Virus record (IMG/VR): IMGVR_UViG_3300029953_000012
Coordinates: 1-64,000 of that record
Source: a virus
Length of the DNA: 64,000 bases
Reading direction: 5' to 3' (one strand)
Below the pieces are notes generated by a model. It was given only the letters and a program-made list of their open reading frames with translations, did not search any database and had not been told where the DNA came from. Positions 8,590-49,377 of the stretch are shown here, piece after piece. Within the stretch, counting starts at the first letter, position 1. Every line of letters begins with the position of its first letter. The position numbers and the translations under genes were made by a program.

Positions 8590-9144
8590 ATGGGTAGAAA
8601 ATCGACATTTGAAAATTATCGTGGTAAAATTATAAATGGAGTTCAACTTTTAGATAAAAAAGGAATTATTAATGGTAGATTAATAGTAAATTGTAAATGT
8701 ATCCCATGTGGGAAAATATTTGAAGAACAATTTCATAATGTCTATCATGGCGGCAGAAGAAGCTGTGGTTGTTTGGTCGGAGCCAAAAAATCAAAAAGTG
8801 TCAGGTGGAAGGGTTTTGGAGAAATAGGAAAAAGTTATTTTACCTCTCTTAAGAGGGGTGCGAAATCACGCAATTTAATTTTCGATATCTCTTTAGAATA
8901 TATGTGGGAACTTTTTTTACAACAAAATAGAAAATGTATCATGACAGGAGAAGTGTTAAAATTTTCTGATTCGAGGATAAGCTGTAATGGAACGGCATCT
9001 TTAGATAGAAAAGACCCAAAAATTGGATATGTAAAAGGAAACATCCAGTGGATTAGGAAAGATATAAATTTCATGAAACAAACCAAGAATGATTTAGAAT
9101 TTTTAGATATAGTGGGAAAAATATCAAAATATAGAAATTTATGA
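8590..9144 (+). CDS. HNH-type homing endonuclease (freestanding)
   Basis: A 184-residue protein of a common phage HNH family. The N-terminal 70 residues hold a zinc-binding-like region (CKCIPCGKIFEEQF, then RRSCGCLVG). The middle has KGFGEIGKSYFTSLKRGAKS and the 'fdis.eymWelFlqQnrkC' helix near residue 112. The C-terminal part has ASLDRKDPKIGYVKGNIQWI near residue 137, the LDR...GY..GN.qWv signature that ends the HNH finger, then DINFMK. It lies between the RmlC-like and GMD genes, with its own -10 box upstream and an ATGA overlap with the GMD gene. The surrounding sugar genes make sense as one unit without it, so it looks like an inserted selfish element. Confidence 0.85.
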   Translation: MGRKSTFENYRGKIINGVQLLDKKGIINGRLIVNCKCIPCGKIFEEQFHNVYHGGRRSCGCLVGAKKSKSVRWKGFGEIGKSYFTSLKRGAKSRNLIFDISLEYMWELFLQQNRKCIMTGEVLKFSDSRISCNGTASLDRKDPKIGYVKGNIQWIRKDINFMKQTKNDLEFLDIVGKISKYRNL

Positions 9145-12649: not shown

Positions 12650-15127
12650 ATGCCCTTACAATCTCTTCAAATAGAAAAACATGTTATAGGTGGTCTAATA
12701 AATAATCAAGACGTAATCGCTGAAATTGATGGATTCGTTAAGGGAAATGACTTCGTTGCACAGCCTCATTCGACTATTTTTAATATTTTAGTTTCTTCTT
12801 ATCTTGCAAAAGAGACTATTGACAAGGTTATTCTTGCTCAAAAGATTAAAAATTTAGGTATTTCATTTAAAGATAACATAAATATTTATGATTATATTGA
12901 AAGTATTTCGTTTGCTCCTATTACTAAAGAAGCTACAATTCGAGCCTGTAAAGAGTTAGTTAGGTACCGAGTTCTTAGAGATATTGATTCTACTCTTTCT
13001 GTTATGAAAGAGAAGATAAATAATAGCGGTAATGATGATTTAACCGAAACCATTTCTTCTATTGACGCTGTATATGGCCACAGAATGAATGCTTTCGAGG
13101 CCACAGACGAACCAAAAATTCTTTTTGAGGGATTTTATGATGAAGTAGAAGAACGAGGTAATAATCCAGTTAATGAAACTGGTCTAGCTACTCCATATGC
13201 GGAATTCAATCGTTTTTATGGAGGTTTTAGAAGGAAAAATCTTTATATTATAGCTGCTAGGGCCAAGGCTGGCAAAGCCCTTGAAGAAAATACTCCAATC
13301 CCAACTCCGAAAGGATTTACAAAAATAAAAGACCTTGTTATTGGAGATGAAGTGTTTGCTGTTGATGGCAGTATTACTACAGTTACAAACATAGCGAAAT
13401 GGAATAATAGAAATTTATTTAAAGTAAATACTTGTGATAATCAACATGTAATTTGCGATGAAGAACACGAGTGGACTATCAAAAAACGAGTTGATTATAA
13501 ATGGGAAACAATAAACACAAAATTATTATATCAATACAACAAATCACAAGAAAATAAAAAACGTCCACAAACTCCATCTTTACCTATTTCTGGTGCATTA
13601 CGTCTTCCAGAAATATCTTTACCAATTGACCCATATATTTTAGGTATATGGTTGGGAGACGGAACTTCTGCTACAACACATATTACGACATCCGACAAAT
13701 TTATTGTAAATAAATTAAAGGAATTTGCTGTAAAAAATAATTTAACCGTTAAAAATCCAGAAAAATATAAATATACTCTATCAAATAATTGGAAGGGAAA
13801 TGTTTTTCTTGATAATCTTAAAAATCTTAATTTAATAAACAACAAACATATCCCTAGTATCTATCTAAGGGCATCCATCGACCAAAGAAAATCCCTGCTT
13901 CAAGGGCTAATTGATAGCGATGGATGTACCTCTAAAAGAAATGGCAGAGTAGAATTCTGTAATAAAAATGAAATATTATCCATTCAAACACTAGAATTAG
14001 TACATTCTATTGGTATTAAGGCTTCTATGCGAGCCAATAAATCCTCTTTATATGGAAAGGATTGTGGAATACGATATAGAATATGTTTCTTTTATAATGA
14101 AGCGTGTCTTTTACCCAGAAAAAAGATTAATTTTTCAAAAAGGAAAGAAAAATTTTCTAATAGACACATAAAGGCGGTTCCTTATGGTACCGGAAATACC
14201 GTATGTATTGAAATTAAACATAACTCTCATTTGTATCTATGCGGAAACGCCATGATTCCTACCCATAATAGTACTCTCTTAGCCGAAATGGGATGTGAAA
14301 TGAGTCGTATTCATGATTGTCCTGTTTTAATATTAGATACAGAAATGTCCCGTGAAGAAGTAAAGTATCGTTCTGGTGCAGCCAAATCAGAAGTCCCACT
14401 CTGGTATCTTAAAACTGGAAATTGGCGTAAGAATCCAGAGTATGTCAGAAAAGTCAGAGAAGGGTCGGTTAAGGGTCTGCATAATAAATACCCCAAAGTA
14501 TATCACATGTCGGTTGGTAATAAGTCTATTGAAGAAATAGCCTCTATCTGCCGCCGTTGGTACTTGAGAATAGTTGGTCGTGGCAAAGATTGCTTGGTTA
14601 TTTATGACTATGTAAAAATGGTAGGTAATGACGAAAGACAGCGTAAGGAATATCAGGAAATGGGCGATAAAGTTGATTTCTTAAAGAAGTTGGCTGAAGA
14701 ATTAGATTTGCCTATTGTAACTGCATGTCAAAATAATAGAGAGGGTGTGGTCGGTGGTCGTGAAGCCTCAGAAATCTCTGATGACGAAAGGTCAATTGGT
14801 ATTTCCGACCGTATTACCCATTTCGCTTCTGGTGTGTGGATTTTCAGAAGAAGAACTCCAGAAGAAATTATTCTAGACACAGTGGAAAGTGGAACTCACA
14901 AATTAATTGAAGTAGTCTGTCGCGAACAAGGAAAGGATGCGGCTGGACACCAAGATAATATTAGACGAGTTTTTCCTGATGATAAAGTGAAATATGTTAA
15001 GAATTTCATTAATTTCAATATCAATAACTTTAGCGTTGAAGAGAGAGGGTCATTGTTAGATTCTATAGCTAGACAAAATGCCCAGTTTCGAGTAGCCAAT
15101 CCCGAACCCGCCGAATTAACCTTATGA
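12650..15127 (+). CDS. dnaB: DnaB-type replicative helicase with intein
   Basis: An 825-residue precursor: extein 1-209, intein 210-540, extein 541-825. The spliced helicase would be 494 residues, normal for DnaB. The N-terminal domain (MPLQSLQIEKHVIGGLINN, 'lE..vLg.ll.') is the DnaB helical collar. The intein splits the P-loop: ARAKAGK (203-209) joins S541 to give A-R-A-K-A-G-K-S, with Ala in place of the first Gly of Walker A. After the intein come LILDTEMSREEVKYRSGA, LVIYDYVKMVG (Walker B), LKKLAEELDLPIVTACQNNR and the RecA-core end. It should unwind DNA at the fork with the primase, whose gene overlaps its end by four bases. It has its own promoter. Confidence 0.93.
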   Translation: MPLQSLQIEKHVIGGLINNQDVIAEIDGFVKGNDFVAQPHSTIFNILVSSYLAKETIDKVILAQKIKNLGISFKDNINIYDYIESISFAPITKEATIRACKELVRYRVLRDIDSTLSVMKEKINNSGNDDLTETISSIDAVYGHRMNAFEATDEPKILFEGFYDEVEERGNNPVNETGLATPYAEFNRFYGGFRRKNLYIIAARAKAGKALEENTPIPTPKGFTKIKDLVIGDEVFAVDGSITTVTNIAKWNNRNLFKVNTCDNQHVICDEEHEWTIKKRVDYKWETINTKLLYQYNKSQENKKRPQTPSLPISGALRLPEISLPIDPYILGIWLGDGTSATTHITTSDKFIVNKLKEFAVKNNLTVKNPEKYKYTLSNNWKGNVFLDNLKNLNLINNKHIPSIYLRASIDQRKSLLQGLIDSDGCTSKRNGRVEFCNKNEILSIQTLELVHSIGIKASMRANKSSLYGKDCGIRYRICFFYNEACLLPRKKINFSKRKEKFSNRHIKAVPYGTGNTVCIEIKHNSHLYLCGNAMIPTHNSTLLAEMGCEMSRIHDCPVLILDTEMSREEVKYRSGAAKSEVPLWYLKTGNWRKNPEYVRKVREGSVKGLHNKYPKVYHMSVGNKSIEEIASICRRWYLRIVGRGKDCLVIYDYVKMVGNDERQRKEYQEMGDKVDFLKKLAEELDLPIVTACQNNREGVVGGREASEISDDERSIGISDRITHFASGVWIFRRRTPEEIILDTVESGTHKLIEVVCREQGKDAAGHQDNIRRVFPDDKVKYVKNFINFNINNFSVEERGSLLDSIARQNAQFRVANPEPAELTL
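13277..14269 (+). mobile_element. Class 3 intein with LAGLIDADG homing endonuclease
   Basis: 331 residues (A210-N540 of the precursor). Block A reads ALEENTPIPTPKGFTKIKDL, so the first residue is Ala instead of Cys or Ser. The class 3 triad is visible: Trp275 in block B (DEEHEWTI), Cys519 in block F (NTVCIEI) and Thr538 in block G (MIPTHN), with the terminal His539-Asn540 and Ser541 as the +1 extein residue. In class 3 inteins the block F Cys forms the first branched intermediate. Between the splicing blocks lies a two-motif LAGLIDADG endonuclease: LGIWLGDG (331-338) and LLQGLIDSDG (416-425), both with the catalytic acidic residue. It appears intact for splicing and homing. The insertion point is within the P-loop of the helicase. 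Confidence 0.9.
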
Positions 15128-17115: not shown

Positions 17116-17144
17116 TTGACAATTAAAGAAAAAACCTTTACTAT
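17116..17144 (+). promoter_or_regulatory. Promoter of Pol III PHP gene
   Basis: TTGACA (17116-17121), 17-base spacer, TACTAT (17139-17144), in the 63-base gap after the nuclease gene. The ATG at 17157 is 12 bases beyond the -10, so the mRNA leader would be about 5 bases. No Shine-Dalgarno is present. Confidence 0.72.
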
Positions 17145-17156
17145 ATAGAGAATGAT

Positions 17157-17915
17157 ATGCAAAAGATTGCTCTATACAAATCCCATTATAGCCTCGGAAA
17201 ATCAATTTTAACTCTCAACAAACCAGTCGGGGATATCGAGAAGCATCCAGTCTCAATTATCGACCTTGTTGTGCATTCTAAGCAAGATAGTTTGACGTTA
17301 GTAGAGAATAATATGACTAGTTTCTTGGAGGCTAGTTCTCGTTGTCAAGAAAAGAAAATAAAACTCATTTATGGATTGAGACTTGAATTCACGCAGGACA
17401 TCTCTGCTCAGGACGAGGCTTCGCTTAAAAAGCGGGCAAAATACATAATATTTGCCAAAAATAATTTGGGGTACAAGGCTCTCATAAAAATTTGGAGCAC
17501 AGCCGCAAAAGAAGGATTCTACTACAATAGCTGTATCGATTTCAAAAATCTAAAGCGTTTTTGGTGTGAAGGTTTAGTGCTTGTGGTGCCATTTTATGAT
17601 TCCTTCCTGCATCTTAATTCTCTGGAAGGACACTCTCATGTGCCAGAATTTGATGGTATAAAGCCCATACTCTTTTTAGAAGATAACCAACTTCCATTTG
17701 ACCCACTACTGCGTTCTAAAGCATTATTCTATGCGGAACAGAATGGATTGGATACGCTAGAAGTACAGAGTATTTTTTACAAATCTAAACTTGACTTTAT
17801 TGCTTACAATACCTTCCGCTGTATTAGCGATAGAACTAATATAGAGAAACCCGAGCTAAACAATTTTGGTAGCGATTTATTCTCCTATGATAGATGGTTA
17901 CAAAATAATTTATGA
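17157..17915 (+). CDS. DNA polymerase III alpha, separate PHP-domain protein
   Basis: A 252-residue protein matching the N-terminal PHP domain of bacterial DnaE. IALYKSHYSLGKSILTL corresponds to the family 'fv.LhvHS.ySlldg', LVENNMTSFLEASSRCQEKK with KLIYGLRLEF to 'ltDhgnl.g...F...a...gikpi.G.E', and ALIKIWSTAAKEGFYYNSCI, followed by FKNLKRFWCEGLVLV, to 'L..l.s.a..egfyykPrid...l....egli'. Metal ligands of active PHP domains are lost (H-x-H becomes K-S-H, D-H becomes E-N), so it is probably structural, perhaps docking the proofreading exonuclease. The polymerase part is a separate gene at 21123-23765. The two lengths sum to 1,132 residues, close to intact DnaE. It overlaps the methyltransferase gene by four bases. 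Confidence 0.82.
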   Translation: MQKIALYKSHYSLGKSILTLNKPVGDIEKHPVSIIDLVVHSKQDSLTLVENNMTSFLEASSRCQEKKIKLIYGLRLEFTQDISAQDEASLKKRAKYIIFAKNNLGYKALIKIWSTAAKEGFYYNSCIDFKNLKRFWCEGLVLVVPFYDSFLHLNSLEGHSHVPEFDGIKPILFLEDNQLPFDPLLRSKALFYAEQNGLDTLEVQSIFYKSKLDFIAYNTFRCISDRTNIEKPELNNFGSDLFSYDRWLQNNL

Positions 17916-18418
17916 ACAAAACTTTAAAATTAAATCTGGGGTGCGGAAAAGACATCAAAGAGAATTATATCAATGTTGACGATAATTCCATGTGGCCAGA
18001 TAAATTACCCGCCAATGTTGTACCACATAATCTTAGCGTTTTTCCTTGGCCATTCAAAGATTACAGTTCCGAAGAAATCTATATGAGTCACGTACTAGAA
18101 CATCTTCCAGACACCACTCGCACTTTAAAGGAAATTAAACGAATCCTAAAAATAGGAGGAATATTTTGGGGAGTAGTTCCCGTAGGTAATTCTTTAAACG
18201 GCCAAACTCATTGGCAACATTGTCGTTATTTTAACAAGTGGTCTTTCTGTGATATATCAAAAGATTTTGGTATGGAATTAATTTATTCTAAATTTGATGT
18301 CTTGCACGATACCACATTTAAACGAATTAGGAATTTAGTTCCTTTTAAAGAAGTTCTCTACAAAGCAGGATGGAATAATGCTTATGATTTGGTTCATTTT
18401 AAACTAAAGAAAATATGA
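17912..18418 (+). CDS. SAM-dependent methyltransferase (small, class I)
   Basis: A 168-residue methyltransferase of the kind common in surface-polysaccharide clusters. LKLNLGCGKDIKENYINVDD opens the protein (motif I GCGxD, then an acidic residue), MSHVLEHLPDTTRTLKEIKR holds the post-motif 'S.vLEHl.d....l.ei.R', and ILKIGGIFWGVVPVGN is the 'vLkpGG.l...vP' strand. Its place between the two halves of the DNA polymerase is unexpected. Substrate unknown. Four-base overlaps at both ends indicate coupled translation. Confidence 0.82.
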   Translation: MNKTLKLNLGCGKDIKENYINVDDNSMWPDKLPANVVPHNLSVFPWPFKDYSSEEIYMSHVLEHLPDTTRTLKEIKRILKIGGIFWGVVPVGNSLNGQTHWQHCRYFNKWSFCDISKDFGMELIYSKFDVLHDTTFKRIRNLVPFKEVLYKAGWNNAYDLVHFKLKKI

Positions 18419-18525
18419 AGGCATTTAAAGAAGAAAAAAATGCTGTTATTTTTACGATTACTTTTATAATAGTAATTTTTACAATTATCCGATTACTTGG
18501 ACTATATGCCTCTTATCATTTATGA
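18415..18525 (+). CDS. 36-residue single-pass membrane peptide
   Basis: A short frame starting at an ATG that overlaps the methyltransferase stop (ATGA) and ending in a stop that overlaps the Nudix ATG (ATGA). The product has a charged N-terminus (MKAFKEEKN) and a hydrophobic helix (VIFTITFIIVIFTIIRLLGL), a plausible one-pass membrane protein. The double ATGA overlap is the main evidence that it is translated. No function assigned. Confidence 0.6.
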   Translation: MKAFKEEKNAVIFTITFIIVIFTIIRLLGLYASYHL

Positions 18526-18959
18526 AAACTCATTATACTCTTGGTTTCTTATTTAGCAATGATTTTAAAAAGGTGGTGCTCATTAAGAAAAAGCGTCCAA
18601 CTTGGCAAGCTGGACGACTTAATGGTGTCGGAGGACATATGGAAGAAGGAGAACGTCCTGAATTTTGTATGTATCGAGAATTCCATGAGGAAATTTGGTA
18701 TAATTATCTTTCCGCTCCTACGTGGAAAGAATACGCTAGATTAGAGGCAGAAGATTTCGTTGTTGACTGTTTTGCGACCACTGGTCAGGTAGATGCATGT
18801 AATGCTAGAACCGACGAAGAAATAGTAATTATAGATACCGAATTAATTCATTCCATGAGGATTTATGACATGGTAGAAAATGTACCTTGGTTGGTTTCAA
18901 TGGCAATAGATTTTCTTAAGGACGGACGCCCTTCATTTGCAACAATAAAATATGAGTAA
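18522..18959 (+). CDS. Nudix hydrolase
   Basis: A 145-residue MutT-type pyrophosphohydrolase. The Nudix box spans residues 38-60: G38, E44, R52-E53, E56-E57, with GHMEEGERPEFCMYREFHEE matching Gx5Ex7REUxEE. The Gly that normally follows EE is Trp59. The preceding segment KRPTWQAGRLNGVGG is the typical 'kp.w..g.wn.pGG' substrate strand. It could clean oxidised or non-canonical nucleotides or act on nucleotide sugars or ADP-ribose derivatives. The substrate cannot be read from the motif. It overlaps the preceding 36-residue gene and the next gene (8 bases). Confidence 0.88.
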   Translation: MKTHYTLGFLFSNDFKKVVLIKKKRPTWQAGRLNGVGGHMEEGERPEFCMYREFHEEIWYNYLSAPTWKEYARLEAEDFVVDCFATTGQVDACNARTDEEIVIIDTELIHSMRIYDMVENVPWLVSMAIDFLKDGRPSFATIKYE

Positions 18960-19422
18960 AAAAACATTCAATAAAATCTTTAACTTCCAAACTCAGATGG
19001 CGGTTGGAGACGTGGGAGAACAGGCTTTTATAAAAGCTTATTCTAATCTAGGTCCAGTAAAAAGCAAAGACCGCGCTTTTGACTTTCACTTAAAAGATGG
19101 TAAAACCGTAGAATTAAAGAGTGATTCATATGCCATGGAAGATACCGAAAATTTCTTTATGGAAATAAGCGCCCACGGAGGACTTGGAGGACCATATAGA
19201 GCCTTAAATGATAATGTAGATTTTTTTATTTATTATTTTCTTAAAAATAAAACGTTTTTTTGGTTTGATACCAAGAAGTTATGCGCGAAACTAGACGAGT
19301 TAATATTAACTAAAAAATACAAAATAAAATCCATTCGTAGCACTTCTTGGGTGGTTGAAGGTTATACTATTCCTCGTTCTGACTTAGAGTGTGTCTTACA
19401 GAGAAAAGACGTTTTTTCTTGA
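18952..19422 (+). CDS. PD-(D/E)XK-type endonuclease / resolvase-like
   Basis: A 156-residue protein with the small restriction-fold core. GDVGEQAFIKAYSNLG near residue 18 gives the 'G..gE..f...' helix. AFDFHLKDGKTVELKSDSYA near residue 44 gives the D...E-x-K catalytic signature (D in FDF, E-L-K). FFMEISAHGGLGGPYRAL, followed by VDFFIYYFL, matches the 'n.f.E......gGp.ra......y..y' extension of phage nucleases that look like Holliday-junction resolvases. It is in the replication block, just before the exonuclease promoter. Substrate not established. Confidence 0.75.
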   Translation: MSKKTFNKIFNFQTQMAVGDVGEQAFIKAYSNLGPVKSKDRAFDFHLKDGKTVELKSDSYAMEDTENFFMEISAHGGLGGPYRALNDNVDFFIYYFLKNKTFFWFDTKKLCAKLDELILTKKYKIKSIRSTSWVVEGYTIPRSDLECVLQRKDVFS

Positions 19423-19447
19423 CTTTAAAGTAAAAGTATGGTAATCT
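19419..19447 (+). promoter_or_regulatory. Promoter of DnaQ-like exonuclease gene
   Basis: TTGACT (19419-19424), 17-base spacer, TAATCT (19442-19447). The ATG at 19455 follows after 7 bases, so the start point would fall on or beside the ATG. No Shine-Dalgarno. Confidence 0.6.
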
Positions 19448-19454
19448 ATATAAA

Positions 19455-20102
19455 ATGAGTGAAGAAAATTGGCTAAGATTTAGCAAAACCACCAAATATG
19501 CAGTTATTGACACAGAAACCTTTAATTTAGGTCTGACGTTTCAAACTAATAGACCTTGGCAGGTAGCAGCACTTCAGGTAGTTGGAGAAACTATTCAAAA
19601 GGAAGTTAACTGTTTTGTTAAATGGGAAGATTGTAAATTTAAAATTGGTGATGGAGCGGCTTTTGTTAATCATTTCAATCAACACGAGTTCGATAGTAAA
19701 TGTATTTCTCCAGATGACGCATTCCCACAATTCTGGCCCCTATTAAAATGGGCTGACCGTATTATCTGGCATAATGGTTTACGTTTCGATATGTATATGC
19801 TGAAGGGCTATGCTGAATTTATGGGTGAGGACTGGTCATTTATTCTTCCAAAAGTCATTGATACTAAAGCCGTAGCTCAAGGAATCAAACTTGGCCGTCC
19901 GTATCAACCAAGTCAAGATAATTGGATTGATTATCAATATCGAATGGCCTCTGACCATACGAAGGGGATTAAAACCAATCTCACCACTCTTGGAAAAGAA
20001 TTTGCCATCCCTTTTGATTACGAAACCTTGCACGATGGGGTCAATGACTGCCGCCTAAATCTTCTGGTTTGGAACAAATTAAAATATCAATTAGAACTTT
20101 AG
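19455..20102 (+). CDS. 3'-5' exonuclease, DnaQ-like (DEDDh)
   Basis: A 215-residue exonuclease. Exo I is KYAVIDTETFNL with D19 and E21. Exo II is IIWHNGLRFDMYMLKGY (HN..FD). Exo III is LHDGVNDCRLNLLVW with H193 and D198, the DEDDh spacing. All catalytic acids are present. It probably provides proofreading for the phage Pol III alpha, which has no exonuclease domain of its own. It lies between the PHP gene and the polymerase gene, in the same orientation, and has its own promoter. Confidence 0.9.
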   Translation: MSEENWLRFSKTTKYAVIDTETFNLGLTFQTNRPWQVAALQVVGETIQKEVNCFVKWEDCKFKIGDGAAFVNHFNQHEFDSKCISPDDAFPQFWPLLKWADRIIWHNGLRFDMYMLKGYAEFMGEDWSFILPKVIDTKAVAQGIKLGRPYQPSQDNWIDYQYRMASDHTKGIKTNLTTLGKEFAIPFDYETLHDGVNDCRLNLLVWNKLKYQLEL

Positions 20103-20114
20103 TTCACGAAGGCG

Positions 20115-20120
20115 TATAAT
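20115..20120 (+). promoter_or_regulatory. -10 box of LAGLIDADG endonuclease
   Basis: A perfect TATAAT lying 6 bases before the ATG at 20127, the same distance as at 8578 and 37379. A weak -35 (TTAGAA, 20091-20096) lies 18 bases upstream. This box decides the start of the endonuclease gene in favour of 20127. Confidence 0.5.
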
Positions 20121-20126
20121 ATGTAT

Positions 20127-20942
20127 ATGAAACCATATACCAAAACAGAAGAAAATATCCTAAAAGAACATTATAGTCTTACGGGCGTTAGTGGCGTCCA
20201 AAAATATATTAAACGCTCTGCTGATTCCATAAGGCACAAAGCAAAATCTTTAGGTATTACTAGAAAAGTCGGATTTAGACACTCCAACCTTAATTTAGAC
20301 GAATTTTATGTAAAAATTACACCTAATGGAGCATACTTTCTTGGACTATTGTGGGGAGATGGGAACTTAAAGATTAACAAAAGACACAATTCTATTTCTA
20401 TCACTTTGCAAGAGAAAGACTTTAATAATTTAAGATATATTTTTAATAAATTTCATATTCATAAAGTTAAAAAGAAAAAACAGAGTTGGCAACAATGTTT
20501 CAAGGCTTATATTGGTCATTTTGATTTTGCCACATTCCTTTTTGAGAACGACTATGTTGAAAAAAGCACCCTTTCTCCTTACAAGATACTATCTTTTATT
20601 AAAGATAAATACCATCATTATTTTTTAAGAGGCTGGTTTGATGCAGATGGGGCATGCAATGAACTTCCAAAAGGAAAATATCATATTTCCTTATCTGGCT
20701 CGTTCAATCAAGATTGGACGGCCTTTACAAGATTGTGCGAAAATTTAGATATAAAAACTAGAATTTATTTTGCAAATGCAAAAAACGGAAATAAGTCTTC
20801 GCACGTTTCAATAATTGGATTTAACAATATCATTCGTTTTAGAGATTTCTTATATTCGGGCAAGAAGATTGGACTTGACAGAAAAAGAAATAAATTTTAC
20901 TCTATAAGACCTCCTTTGAGAGAAGGAGCGTTGAATCCATGA
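20127..20942 (+). CDS. Freestanding LAGLIDADG homing endonuclease
   Basis: A 271-residue protein. The N-terminal 45 residues (YTKTEENILKEHYSLTGVSG, then RSADSIRHKAKSLGI) look like a SANT/Myb or winged-helix DNA-binding segment. Two LAGLIDADG helices follow: AYFLGLLWGDGNLKI near residue 70 and HYFLRGWFDADGACN near residue 170, each with its acidic catalytic residue. The gene stands between the exonuclease and polymerase genes, inside the region that separates the two parts of DnaE. An in-frame ATG at 20121 directly abuts TATAAT; the second ATG (20127) gives the spacing used by other leaderless genes here. It overlaps the next small gene by ATGA. Confidence 0.87.
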   Translation: MKPYTKTEENILKEHYSLTGVSGVQKYIKRSADSIRHKAKSLGITRKVGFRHSNLNLDEFYVKITPNGAYFLGLLWGDGNLKINKRHNSISITLQEKDFNNLRYIFNKFHIHKVKKKKQSWQQCFKAYIGHFDFATFLFENDYVEKSTLSPYKILSFIKDKYHHYFLRGWFDADGACNELPKGKYHISLSGSFNQDWTAFTRLCENLDIKTRIYFANAKNGNKSSHVSIIGFNNIIRFRDFLYSGKKIGLDRKRNKFYSIRPPLREGALNP

Positions 20943-21118
20943 GCTACATCATTATCAACCATACAATGCGTCAAATAGAACGCGCCAAGCGCGGTGAAAT
21001 TTCGTGGAACTCTCTCAAACAAACCAGTGGAGAAAGATGGTTCTGTCTAATTTTTGGAACCTTTTTCCTTACATTATTCGTTCTATCAATCGTAAAACAA
21101 ATAATTTGCGCCAATTAA
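20939..21118 (+). CDS. 59-residue single-pass membrane protein
   Basis: A short gene whose ATG overlaps the endonuclease stop (ATGA) and whose TAA lies four bases before the polymerase ATG. The N-terminal half is polar and basic (MRQIERAKRGEISW). The C-terminal half is a hydrophobic segment (WFCLIFGTFFLTLFVLSIVK) followed by a short tail ending in CAN. Probably a small membrane protein. No function assigned. Confidence 0.6.
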   Translation: MSYIIINHTMRQIERAKRGEISWNSLKQTSGERWFCLIFGTFFLTLFVLSIVKQIICAN

Positions 21119-21122
21119 CATC

Positions 21123-23765
21123 ATGCTAATAGAACAATTTACATCACAATTTTCTGGTATAGAAAACCCTATTCGCGGGGTAAGATTGCCTCAAATTACC
21201 TTTGAAGAACGTCATCGTAAGGAATTAAAACTCGCTGACGATTGTAGTAACTTCGAATTCCTACGGGCCTTGTGTTTAAAAGGTTTCGCTAACCTAAAAC
21301 TAGACAAGGGTTCAAATAAATACAAAGAATATTCTGCTCGCGTTAAATCAGAGTTAGATACCCTTAATGAACTGGGGTTTGTGGATTATATCCTTCTAGT
21401 TTGGGATGTAGTTAACTTCTGCCGCGAAAACAATATTCCAACAGGTCCGGGGCGTGGTTCCGCTGCTGGTAGCCTAGTACTTTACCTTATTGGGGTTACA
21501 AAGATTGATTCCGTCAAATATGGCCTCTATTTTGAGCGTTTTGTGTCCAAGACTCGCGCCAAAAAAACGGTTATTGATGGAATCACCTATCTTGATGGTT
21601 CTCTTATGCCTGACATCGACGTTGACTTTGATTATTACCAGCGGCAGAAGGTATTGGAGTACGTAGATTTAAAATATAAAGGTAGAACAGCTAAGATTTT
21701 AACGCTAAATAGTCTCTCTTCTAAGCTTTGTATCAAAGAAGTAGGCAAAGTACTCGGAATGAAATCTGAGGACGAAATGAGCATGGTTACAAGTATGATT
21801 CCCAAGACCCACGGAATTGTTGTTGGAATTAAAGAGTCCATTAATGGTCTCAAAGATGAAAAAACTGGTAAATGGAAAATTCAACCAACAGTCGAACTTC
21901 AGGACTGGTTTCAAGAAAATCCAATGATATTGGATAACGCTTATAAATTAGAAGACCTTGTTAAAAATAAGGGCGTCCATCCTTCAGGTATCCTAATTTC
22001 CTATGACCCGCTAGATGAATGCTGCCCAATTGAAATGTCTTCTGACAAGGAAGCGGTTTCGGGTTATGATATGAATTGGGTGTCTCTTTTCTCGGTTAAA
22101 TTGGACGCCTTGGGACTCAGAAGCGTGTCTGTGGTTGATGACTGTTGTAAGTCTATTGGCATTAAAGCTGAGGATATTGATATTGATGACCCAATGATTT
22201 ATCGTCAACTTCAAGATTTGAAAAATCCTCACGGACTATTTCAAATTGAAGCAGATGTCAATTATAAGGTAACTCAAAAGGTAAAACCAAGGAATCTAGA
22301 AGAATTATCAGCGGTTTTAAGTTTGGGTAGGCCCGGAGCCATTCAATTCGTTGACCAATACGCCACATTTACTAATACGGGAGTTATTAAAATGTCCAGT
22401 GGTTCCGACGCGCTTGATAAAATACTTGCTGAAACGGGAGGATGTTGTTTGTTTCAAGAAACGATGATGCGTTGTTGTAAAGAAGTGTTTGGTCTATCTC
22501 TTGAAGAGGCTGAATTAGTTCGTCGTGCCTGTGGAAAGAAGAAAAAAGAAGACATGATGAAGTTTGAAAAAATCATCAAAGAAAGCGCCAAACAAAAGAA
22601 TATTGAATCTGCGGGTGAGTTTTTCTGGCAATTAATGCTTGATTCGGCTGATTATAGTTTTAACAAATCTCACGCTGTTTCGTATGCTGTTCTATCTGCC
22701 CAGACAATTTATCTCAAATTTAAATATCCTGTCCAATTTTACTTGTCATTACTTAAGATGACAAGACATGAACCAGACCCAATTGGAGAAATATCCAAGA
22801 TTCACAAGGAAATGCTGGCTTTAGGAGTACAGTTACTACCGCCTAGTTTAACTGAATCAGAGGTGGGTTTCTCTATTCAGAATGGTAATATTCGTTTTGG
22901 ACTTTCTTCCATAAAGGGTATTAGTGAAAAGACTATGGAGAAATTGAATGATTTTGAAAGAGTCCAATCAGATAAATTAACTCTATTTATATCTGCCAAA
23001 GCAGCGGGAATTGGTATTGGGGTTCTATCTGCGCTAATTCAAGCTGGTACTTTGGATTCTATATCTAAGAATCGTGTATTTTTGGTTTATGAAGCTCAAA
23101 TCTGGAATGAGTTAACTGACCGAGAAAAAAAATATGTGCTAAATTACGCCAAGGATTATAACGGTAGTGTCGTAAAAACTGTAAAAGCACTAGTAGAAAC
23201 TATTAAGGATGATAAGAGCAAACCCATTATCAAAGCTTCCAGACTCGAAACTATTAGGCGTGATACAGACCGTTTTAAAAAGATTTACGAACAAAATAGT
23301 ATTAGTCAACCGTTTGCCAACTGGTGGTACGAAAATAAGTTACTTGGCTATACCCATCAACAAACATTAATGGAAATATTCCATGACAAAATTGACTCTT
23401 TAGAAAGCGTTTCTCAAATTAAAACATATCCCGCAAAAACAGAATGTGATTTTATTGGTATCGTAGATGAAGCCGGAAAAACTTCTAAATCTAAAGCCGG
23501 AACTCCATACGCTAAATTCCAAATTTCTGATGAAACTGGTTCATTGAGGGTTATGATTTTTGGTATATCTGATAAACAGAAGACTTCAAAAGGAAGATTT
23601 AATAGAGATAAGTTACAGGAATGTAAGGACTTAAATGGCTCCCTTCCAAAAGAAGGCGACATAGTCATTGTCAAAGGACAAAAAATGGAAGATGATTGTT
23701 TGTTCGCAGATACAATCGCATGTCAGCAAAATAAAATCTATACCAAGCTATCTGAAATAAAATAA
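21123..23765 (+). CDS. dnaE: DNA polymerase III alpha subunit, catalytic part (no PHP domain)
   Basis: 880 residues covering everything of DnaE except the PHP domain. GFVDYILLVWDVVNFCREN is the palm entry. GPGRGSAAGS at 108-117 binds the incoming nucleotide phosphates. PDIDVDFD at 163-170 carries the catalytic Asp pair (D166 and D168), with the third acid in VKLDALGLRS. Fingers (LSLGRPGAIQFVDQY, CCLFQETMMRCCKEVFGLSL, FNKSHAVSYAVLS), the HhH region (RFGLSSIKGIS) and a C-terminal OB fold (ECDFIGIVDEAGKTSKSKAG, SLRVMIFG) are all recognisable. It is the replicative polymerase, presumably working with the separate PHP protein and exonuclease. The start at 21123 has AT-rich upstream sequence without a clear Shine-Dalgarno. 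Confidence 0.94.
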   Translation: MLIEQFTSQFSGIENPIRGVRLPQITFEERHRKELKLADDCSNFEFLRALCLKGFANLKLDKGSNKYKEYSARVKSELDTLNELGFVDYILLVWDVVNFCRENNIPTGPGRGSAAGSLVLYLIGVTKIDSVKYGLYFERFVSKTRAKKTVIDGITYLDGSLMPDIDVDFDYYQRQKVLEYVDLKYKGRTAKILTLNSLSSKLCIKEVGKVLGMKSEDEMSMVTSMIPKTHGIVVGIKESINGLKDEKTGKWKIQPTVELQDWFQENPMILDNAYKLEDLVKNKGVHPSGILISYDPLDECCPIEMSSDKEAVSGYDMNWVSLFSVKLDALGLRSVSVVDDCCKSIGIKAEDIDIDDPMIYRQLQDLKNPHGLFQIEADVNYKVTQKVKPRNLEELSAVLSLGRPGAIQFVDQYATFTNTGVIKMSSGSDALDKILAETGGCCLFQETMMRCCKEVFGLSLEEAELVRRACGKKKKEDMMKFEKIIKESAKQKNIESAGEFFWQLMLDSADYSFNKSHAVSYAVLSAQTIYLKFKYPVQFYLSLLKMTRHEPDPIGEISKIHKEMLALGVQLLPPSLTESEVGFSIQNGNIRFGLSSIKGISEKTMEKLNDFERVQSDKLTLFISAKAAGIGIGVLSALIQAGTLDSISKNRVFLVYEAQIWNELTDREKKYVLNYAKDYNGSVVKTVKALVETIKDDKSKPIIKASRLETIRRDTDRFKKIYEQNSISQPFANWWYENKLLGYTHQQTLMEIFHDKIDSLESVSQIKTYPAKTECDFIGIVDEAGKTSKSKAGTPYAKFQISDETGSLRVMIFGISDKQKTSKGRFNRDKLQECKDLNGSLPKEGDIVIVKGQKMEDDCLFADTIACQQNKIYTKLSEIK

Positions 23766-48567: not shown

Positions 48568-49377
48568 ATGAATAAAATATCGGGGATATACCAAATAATA
48601 AATACAAAAAATGGCAAATTTTACGTTGGAAGCTTAAAGGATTGTTACGCAAGAAAAGGGAGGCATTTTAGGCACTTAAAAAATAGAACTCATTATAATG
48701 ATTATTTACAAAGGTCTTTTGATAAATACGGGGAATCTTCGTTTGTATTTTTAGTCTTGGAAGAAGATATACCTGAAAATAGTTTGCTTTCTATAGAGCA
48801 ATTATATTTAGACGAAATATCTAAAGATAAACAACATTCTATGAATGCTGGTTTTATAGCTGGTAGAGTAGAAATGACAGACGAAATTAAACAAAAAATA
48901 AGAATAACAAGGATAGGGAAGAAAATGAGTGAAGTTACAAAAAAGAAACTTTCTGAATTGGGGTTGGGGGAAAAGAATCACTTTTTTGGGAAACACCATA
49001 CACAAGAATCAAAAAAGAAAATTGGTAAAAAGGGAGAAAAACATCCATTTTTTGGTAAACGTCATTCTGAAGCAAGTAAAAGAAAAATATCCAAAGCTAA
49101 TAAGGGAAGAGTCCTGTCGGTCTTGACTAGAAAAAATATATCTCTTGCTAAAAAAGGAGTTCCTCGTTCAAAAGAGGCTATAAGGAAAACACAATTAGCG
49201 ATAATGATTCCAATAAAACAATTAGACAAAATAACTGGAAATATTATTAAAATTTGGCCGTCTATGAAGGATGCATCAATATCATTAGGAATTAGCAATG
49301 GTTATACTGGCAATATTAGTAGAGCATGTTCAAAAATAAAACCATCTGCCTACGGTTTCAAATGGGAATACGCTTAA
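48568..49377 (+). CDS. GIY-YIG homing endonuclease with NUMOD repeats
   Basis: A 269-residue endonuclease. GIY at residues 6-8 and YVG at 19-21 begin the catalytic domain, with Arg in YARKGRHFRHL and Glu77 in SIEQLYLDE completing the site. A linker of NUMOD3 copies follows (GEKNHFFGKHHTQESKKKIG at 134-153, GEKHPFFGKRHSEASKRKIS at 156-175), then a C-terminal NUMOD1-type DNA-binding segment (217-268: IKQLDKITGNIIKIW...AYGFKWEY). It lies on the opposite strand to all neighbours, between two tail genes, and its TAA shares bases with the stop of the 49374 gene (TTAA). It has its own promoter and a structured leader. Appears intact. Confidence 0.93.
   Translation: MNKISGIYQIINTKNGKFYVGSLKDCYARKGRHFRHLKNRTHYNDYLQRSFDKYGESSFVFLVLEEDIPENSLLSIEQLYLDEISKDKQHSMNAGFIAGRVEMTDEIKQKIRITRIGKKMSEVTKKKLSELGLGEKNHFFGKHHTQESKKKIGKKGEKHPFFGKRHSEASKRKISKANKGRVLSVLTRKNISLAKKGVPRSKEAIRKTQLAIMIPIKQLDKITGNIIKIWPSMKDASISLGISNGYTGNISRACSKIKPSAYGFKWEYA

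Follow-up and report, generated by a model that had tools for sequence, protein, structure and literature searches.

The window, i.e., the whole stretch of 64,000 nucleotides analyzed here (positions 1 to 64,000 of the IMG/VR virus record IMGVR_UViG_3300029953_000012), carries a DnaE-type α subunit of DNA polymerase III (Pol III) that is encoded as two proteins, a PHP domain (PHP) and the remaining polymerase (POL), with the gene of a DnaQ-like exonuclease (EXO) between them:

17157..17915, + strand: PHP subunit, a stand-alone, catalytically degenerate DnaE PHP domain of 252 amino acids (Pfam, phrog_405, PDB profile, AlphaFold2 [AF2], Foldseek)
19455..20102, + strand: EXO subunit, a DnaQ/PolC-like DEDDh exonuclease of 215 amino acids (phrog_192, 1.3e-17; PDB matches)
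21123..23765, + strand: POL subunit, DnaE minus the PHP domain, 880 amino acids (Pfam, phrog_405, AF2, Foldseek)

Identity of the PHP, EXO and POL proteins

An earlier reading made from the sequence alone had proposed that open reading frames (ORFs) of 252 and 880 residues together make one DnaE. Both ORFs were confirmed at 17157-17915 and 21123-23765, separated by a gap of 3,207 bp, and their assignment to one DnaE is borne out by Pfam, phrog_405 and structure matches. The 252-residue protein matched Pfam PHP above the cut-off (E = 4e-11), aligned to the N-terminal columns 62–249 of phrog_405, a phage DnaE family, and its profile retrieved DnaE of Thermus aquaticus (Taq) from the PDB (3e0d, 5e-10). 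Its AF2 model, built with 80 sequences, reached a predicted local distance difference test (pLDDT) value of 88.7 and a predicted template modeling (pTM) score of 0.88. The structural match of 17157-17915 to PHP that was looked for with Foldseek was clear: the 20 best PDB matches of the model were all Pol III α or PolC, with TMq values up to 0.75 (to 3e0d).

POL aligned to phrog_405 columns 330–1082 (3e-158) and gave matches to DNA_pol3_alpha, the finger domain, HHH_6 and, weakly, the oligonucleotide-binding (OB) fold. It is made up of palm, fingers, helix-hairpin-helix and OB parts, and the C-terminal τ-binding part is missing. The AF2 model (pLDDT 87.8) matched DnaE from Taq, Mycobacterium tuberculosis and Escherichia coli in Foldseek, and the alignment showed that all three catalytic aspartates are kept (D164, D166 and D328, corresponding to E. 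coli D401, D403 and D555). The POL frame extends over no more than 886 open codons, which leaves no room for a hidden PHP ahead of it. A PHP fused to another polymerase was sought in the window's own 100-kb record and not found; this record holds a single PHP and a single DNA_pol3_alpha match, and neither a second PHP nor a second polymerase.

The best PDB profile match of EXO was the PolC exonuclease from Thermotoga maritima (2p1j, 8.6e-10), and E. coli ε was also retrieved. The DEDDh residues D19, E21, D112, H193 and D198 were invariant in the eight sequences aligned. With 215 residues in the window and 211–219 in 80 relatives, EXO ends approximately 17 residues past the last catalytic Asp. 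With DEDDh kept in EXO and the catalytic aspartates in POL, these motifs make EXO the simplest candidate for proofreading.

Gene order and age of the split in related viruses

Relatives of PHP and POL were gathered from IMG/VR and genome contigs. Each scan comprised the best 80 loci by similarity, so that a distant fused sister could escape; scans based on POL do not select for an absent PHP. After removal of near-copies, 168 complete non-redundant cassettes were obtained, composed of the window and 167 others from uncultured viral contigs. When these were searched for fused versus split versions, all 168 were split, with no PHP domain in the same chain as POL, and four POL-based IMG/VR scans yielded no fused close relative. 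At every locus with enough sequence the genes were arranged in the order PHP, DnaQ-type EXO, POL on a single strand, and no reading frame carried more than one of the three. The PHP and EXO genes overlapped or were at most 30 nt apart in 95 of 168 cassettes, the EXO and POL genes in 98, and both gaps were this short in 49.

The stand-alone PHP was the sole PHP found in nine of ten large related contigs; the tenth was without a Pfam match. Eight of eight large contigs (100–211 kb, this record among them) contained one DnaE-type polymerase with no PHP fused to it, and in the same eight no match was obtained to a family A or B polymerase or to a phage-encoded β clamp (PF02767). DnaE appears to be the only DNA polymerase of this phage lineage. 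The lineage is abundant among environmental viral contigs, and the 50,697 phage records searched included no close relative (best polymerase identity ~30%). No earlier account of a replicase with PHP as its own gene was found in the literature searched, though Kazlauskas and Venclovas (2011), on viral replicases, may mention the split.

When 21 split and 11 fused polymerases were placed in one maximum-likelihood tree, the split set formed one branch with a support of 100/100 and a stem of 1.88 changes per column. The split POLs descend from a single split event on this tree, and the PHP/POL split is old and fixed in a large group of uncultured phages.

The sequence-only reading had raised the possibility of homing-endonuclease-driven gene splitting, in which the LAGLIDADG gene of the window, or relatives of it, parted PHP from the polymerase and left the split as a recent scar. 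A LAGLIDADG gene does sit between PHP and POL in the window, and in other phage DnaEs a break coincides with or adjoins a homing endonuclease (KLEB27-3, phage G) or, as in the related locus L024, a split intein cuts POL. This claim did not survive the comparison: gene-by-gene inspection of 80 other cassettes showed the same split without LAGLIDADG in every one, the PHP/POL split is placed on the family stem in the POL tree, and the breaks of KLEB27-3 and phage G fall inside the catalytic part, unlike the PHP/POL break. A recent scar of this kind is therefore highly improbable. The window's own LAGLIDADG gene as the cause is refuted, because the split also occurs in relatives that do not have the endonuclease, and no fused relative was found. 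A homing element may have caused the split in a remote ancestor.

The homing-endonuclease-interrupted DnaEs (Bacillus phages G and KLEB27-3) and the split-intein DnaEs share with the family described here that DnaE is spread over two or more reading frames. They differ in that their break lies in the catalytic part with an endonuclease or intein nearby, whereas the PHP/POL break has neither; in broken DnaEs such as those of G and KLEB27-3, PHP is still fused to the palm. The PHP/POL split is a separate event from these catalytic-part breaks. In group 2.2 jumbo phages, which have a minimal split Pol III α (PMC7824862), the separate proteins are likewise predicted to reassociate. There, in contrast, it is the catalytic part that is divided, between genes lying far apart, PHP is absent and the phages also have a family B polymerase (PMC7824862). 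In the split family, the catalytic part is whole in most members, and no other polymerase of family A, B or C was found.

Three relatives have POL broken again at the same place, around residue 500 (L024, 10802-14970; L344, 3983-6873; L350, 3992-7876). The break in L024 is flanked by SFNK/SHS and both of its frames have intein-like ends, with a NUMOD4/HNH endonuclease in the N part and a C part ending in ...MVTSN; by these features it is identified as a split intein with endonuclease. In the finger region (window 22395-22680, POL ~425–520), the sequences of the window and L002 stand clearly apart from those of the six other members aligned, which suggests a mosaic segment.

Properties of PHP and proposed assembly of the three proteins

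Active PHP domains have the metal-ligand motif HHDHEH[C/H]DH (PMC12926913). The family alignment confirmed that the metal ligands are lost, as the sequence-only reading had stated: of the active set, only the third position keeps an acidic residue (E/D). The residues found at ligand positions are themselves conserved (K8 in 161/168, R75 in 153/168 and K95 in 167/168 sequences, E/D at position 50). PFYDS stands at 145–149 (P145 and Y147 in 168/168, D148 in 167/168), position 205 is S/T and position 207 mostly Y/F. At the Cys ligand position the alignment is sensitive to shifts, with no Cys or His nearby in either reading. The isolated PHP domain of E. coli was reported to hydrolyze pyrophosphate (PMC4822814); the residues involved, H12, D19 and D201 (PMC4822814), align with K/T, K and S/T in the family. 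A function of the phage PHP as active nuclease or pyrophosphatase was rejected, as the required residues are missing. With dN/dS ratios (nonsynonymous to synonymous substitution rates) of 0.005–0.066 in 14 pairs, the protein, catalytically inactive as judged from its residues, is yet under purifying selection. In replicative bacterial polymerases the PHP domain has been described as strictly conserved and as important for stability, with an unclear role once catalysis is lost (PMC3666897), and it is counted in the core common to DnaE and PolC (PMC3919608).

The alignment placed the break at E. coli DnaE residues 254–256, directly ahead of the helix EALANTVEIAKRC (255–267), so that the last PHP helix of fused DnaE is the start of the POL protein in the split family. 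Features of POL referred to here are:

21129..21164, + strand: POL residues 3–14, equivalent of the last PHP helix in fused DnaE (alignment to E. coli EALANTVEIAKRC, 255–267)
21564..21605, + strand: 14-residue insert, POL 148–161, just ahead of the catalytic PDxD motif (present in every split member that was aligned with fused DnaEs)

The stretch from the PHP model to the POL model measures 40, 64 and 66 residues in fused phage DnaEs, and the corresponding sums for split pairs are 42, 65 and 66; thus, no sequence was lost at the cut. Trans-splicing or a split intein at the PHP/POL break was rejected, as PHP ends and POL starts at a domain border with no intein or extra sequence. Toste Rego and colleagues (PMC3642679) found that E. 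coli α truncated to residues 1–255 is insoluble, whereas fragments 1–270 and 1–285 are well behaved and bind the ε exonuclease. By analogy, the phage PHP protein is likely to need the POL N-terminus. POL residues 1–20 had lower confidence in the single-chain AF2 model (71–72), as expected if they are docked on another chain.

Evidence for the cassette as one unit was obtained from the region upstream of PHP and from protein distances:

17116..17144, + strand: σ70-like promoter site TTGACA-17-TACTAT (sequence scan; 12 nt ahead of the PHP ATG)

A σ70-like site with at least 9 of 12 matches was present directly before PHP in 62 of 80 cassettes, versus a mean of 11.5 (maximum 30) in shuffled sequences, and promoter-like sites before EXO and POL showed no excess over chance in these 80 cassettes. 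The site ends 6–7 nt from the PHP ATG in most cassettes, a spacing from which we infer a nearly leaderless PHP transcript. Pairwise protein distances of PHP correlated best with those of POL (r 0.94, partial 0.44), followed by EXO (r 0.88, partial −0.10) and a neighboring RecB-like gene (r 0.87, partial −0.13); the partial correlation between EXO and POL was 0.70. This tracking of POL by PHP is supportive of one unit, though not decisive.

Taken together, PHP, EXO and POL probably form a non-covalent core replicase in which PHP serves as an inactive scaffold. In this reading, a single PHP–EXO–POL cassette would supply Pol III α as two polypeptides together with a separate proofreader, and the three products would be made together and joined non-covalently. 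PHP, having lost catalysis, would work as a structural scaffold that docks at the N-terminus of POL and has its fold completed by the helix residing there; reassociation of PHP with POL, to which several indirect lines point, is likely. EXO would provide 3'-5' proofreading, the task of ε in E. coli and of the built-in exonuclease domain in PolC. The LAGLIDADG, methyltransferase and Nudix genes and the tiny ORFs would be later passengers in two insertion-prone gaps.

Several points weigh against this assignment. The association of the three proteins rests on inference. Local similarity at the break is low, and the mapping may shift by a few residues. In E. coli, ε binds the PHP domain through a C-terminal tail; EXO has no such tail and must therefore dock in a different way. 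Part of the correlation between PHP and POL distances may come from POL being the longest protein and the one with the least noise. Finally, column covariation among PHP, EXO and POL (168 sequences, effective number ~87) gave no signal, with top scores equal to those of a phylogeny-preserving shuffle.

PHP could instead have left the polymerase for an independent role, e.g., as a pyrophosphatase or as a scaffold elsewhere, with POL working alone; the existence of PHP as a separate protein and the pyrophosphate hydrolysis reported for the E. coli domain (PMC4822814) would fit. This is quite unlikely, given that the residues for pyrophosphatase activity are replaced in the family alignment, that PHP is always found in the POL cassette and its distances track those of POL best, and that its completeness seems to need the POL-borne helix (alignment, PMC3642679). 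It is doubtful, too, that PHP chiefly tethers EXO rather than POL, acting as an adaptor of the exonuclease to the polymerase or to host factors. The frequent overlap or proximity of the PHP and EXO genes, the binding of ε by the E. coli PHP domain (PMC3642679) and the lack of a tail in EXO speak for such a tether, and the partial correlation of −0.10 for PHP–EXO versus 0.70 for EXO–POL speaks against it; it is also not exclusive with the non-covalent core replicase proposed above.

That replicase resembles the bacterial DnaE-type Pol III core (E. coli α–ε, T. aquaticus α) in its domains, catalytic residues and separate DnaQ-type proofreader, and in E. coli α PHP is inactive as well. In contrast to the bacterial core, the phage PHP is a gene of its own with the break inside the PHP fold before the last helix, POL has the 14-residue pre-PDxD insert and is devoid of the C-terminal τ-binding part, and EXO has no PHP-binding tail. 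With PolC, the Gram-positive replicase, the cassette shares the order PHP–exonuclease–polymerase, and the solved structure nearest to EXO is the exonuclease of T. maritima PolC. PolC, however, is a single chain with the exonuclease inserted into its PHP domain (PMC3919608), whereas the phage cassette consists of three genes with EXO following the PHP domain, and the POL sequence is DnaE-like.

More tentatively, and with somewhat less than even confidence, the three-chain Pol III core may be obligatory lineage-wide, with a detachable, inactive PHP completed by the POL helix and the metal site turned into a conserved Lys/Arg/Lys-centered core. If so, PHP would be the hub for EXO–POL assembly, made first from a near-leaderless transcript. 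As PHP is separated by nature yet strongly selected, what it contributes to the stability of the polymerase, to proofreading and to the positioning of the exonuclease lends itself to testing by adding or omitting a single protein, and a three-protein phage replicase could reveal the assembly of DnaE-type enzymes.

Other genes in the cassette gaps and further observations

The genes predicted between PHP and POL by the sequence-only reading, i.e., a methyltransferase, two tiny membrane proteins, a Nudix hydrolase, a nuclease, the DnaQ-like exonuclease and a LAGLIDADG endonuclease, were all recovered, the membrane proteins as hydrophobic ORFs and the nuclease as a nuclease-like protein. Besides EXO, they are:

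17912..18418, + strand: methyltransferase-like gene, a later insertion in the PHP–EXO gap (Methyltransf_11, 8.5e-8)
18415..18525, + strand: hydrophobic ORF of 36 amino acids
18522..18959, + strand: Nudix hydrolase, a later insertion in the PHP–EXO gap (NUDIX, 5.4e-9)
18952..19422, + strand: nuclease-like protein of 156 amino acids, optional gap cargo (without a Pfam family at threshold)
20121..20942, + strand: free-standing LAGLIDADG endonuclease, a recent insertion between EXO and POL (LAGLIDADG_3, 3.8e-11)
20939..21118, + strand: hydrophobic ORF of 59 amino acids (no Pfam or PHROG family matched)

The genes between PHP and POL vary across relatives, the DnaQ gene alone being constant, and the PHP–EXO gap holds several unrelated optional genes. 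No LAGLIDADG gene was present in the cassette gaps of the 80 relatives inspected, and no counterparts of the methyltransferase or the Nudix hydrolase were matched among their gap ORFs; on this basis, all three genes are considered later insertions in the window. Homologues of the 156-residue protein occupy the same gap in L005, L017 and L172 among the 80 relatives. The PHP–EXO gap of L012 (10764-11738) and L013 (10764-11732) contains a gene of the IMP dehydrogenase/GMP reductase family.

A conserved acidic ORF of ~72 amino acids (MASLDDIYDLLDKLEDSNIEYLLITIQKGKKQGKADVFYSLKD...) belonging to no known family was observed in the EXO–POL gap of 50 of the 80 relatives (e.g., L025:3505-3732) and is not present in the window; it is possibly an accessory replication subunit. 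Elsewhere in the window, the DnaB helicase gene (12650-15127) has an intein-like insert with LAGLIDADG at approximately residues 211–540 that is absent from the relatives compared, and further homing-endonuclease-like and HNH-like genes are located at 48568-49377 and 8590-9144.

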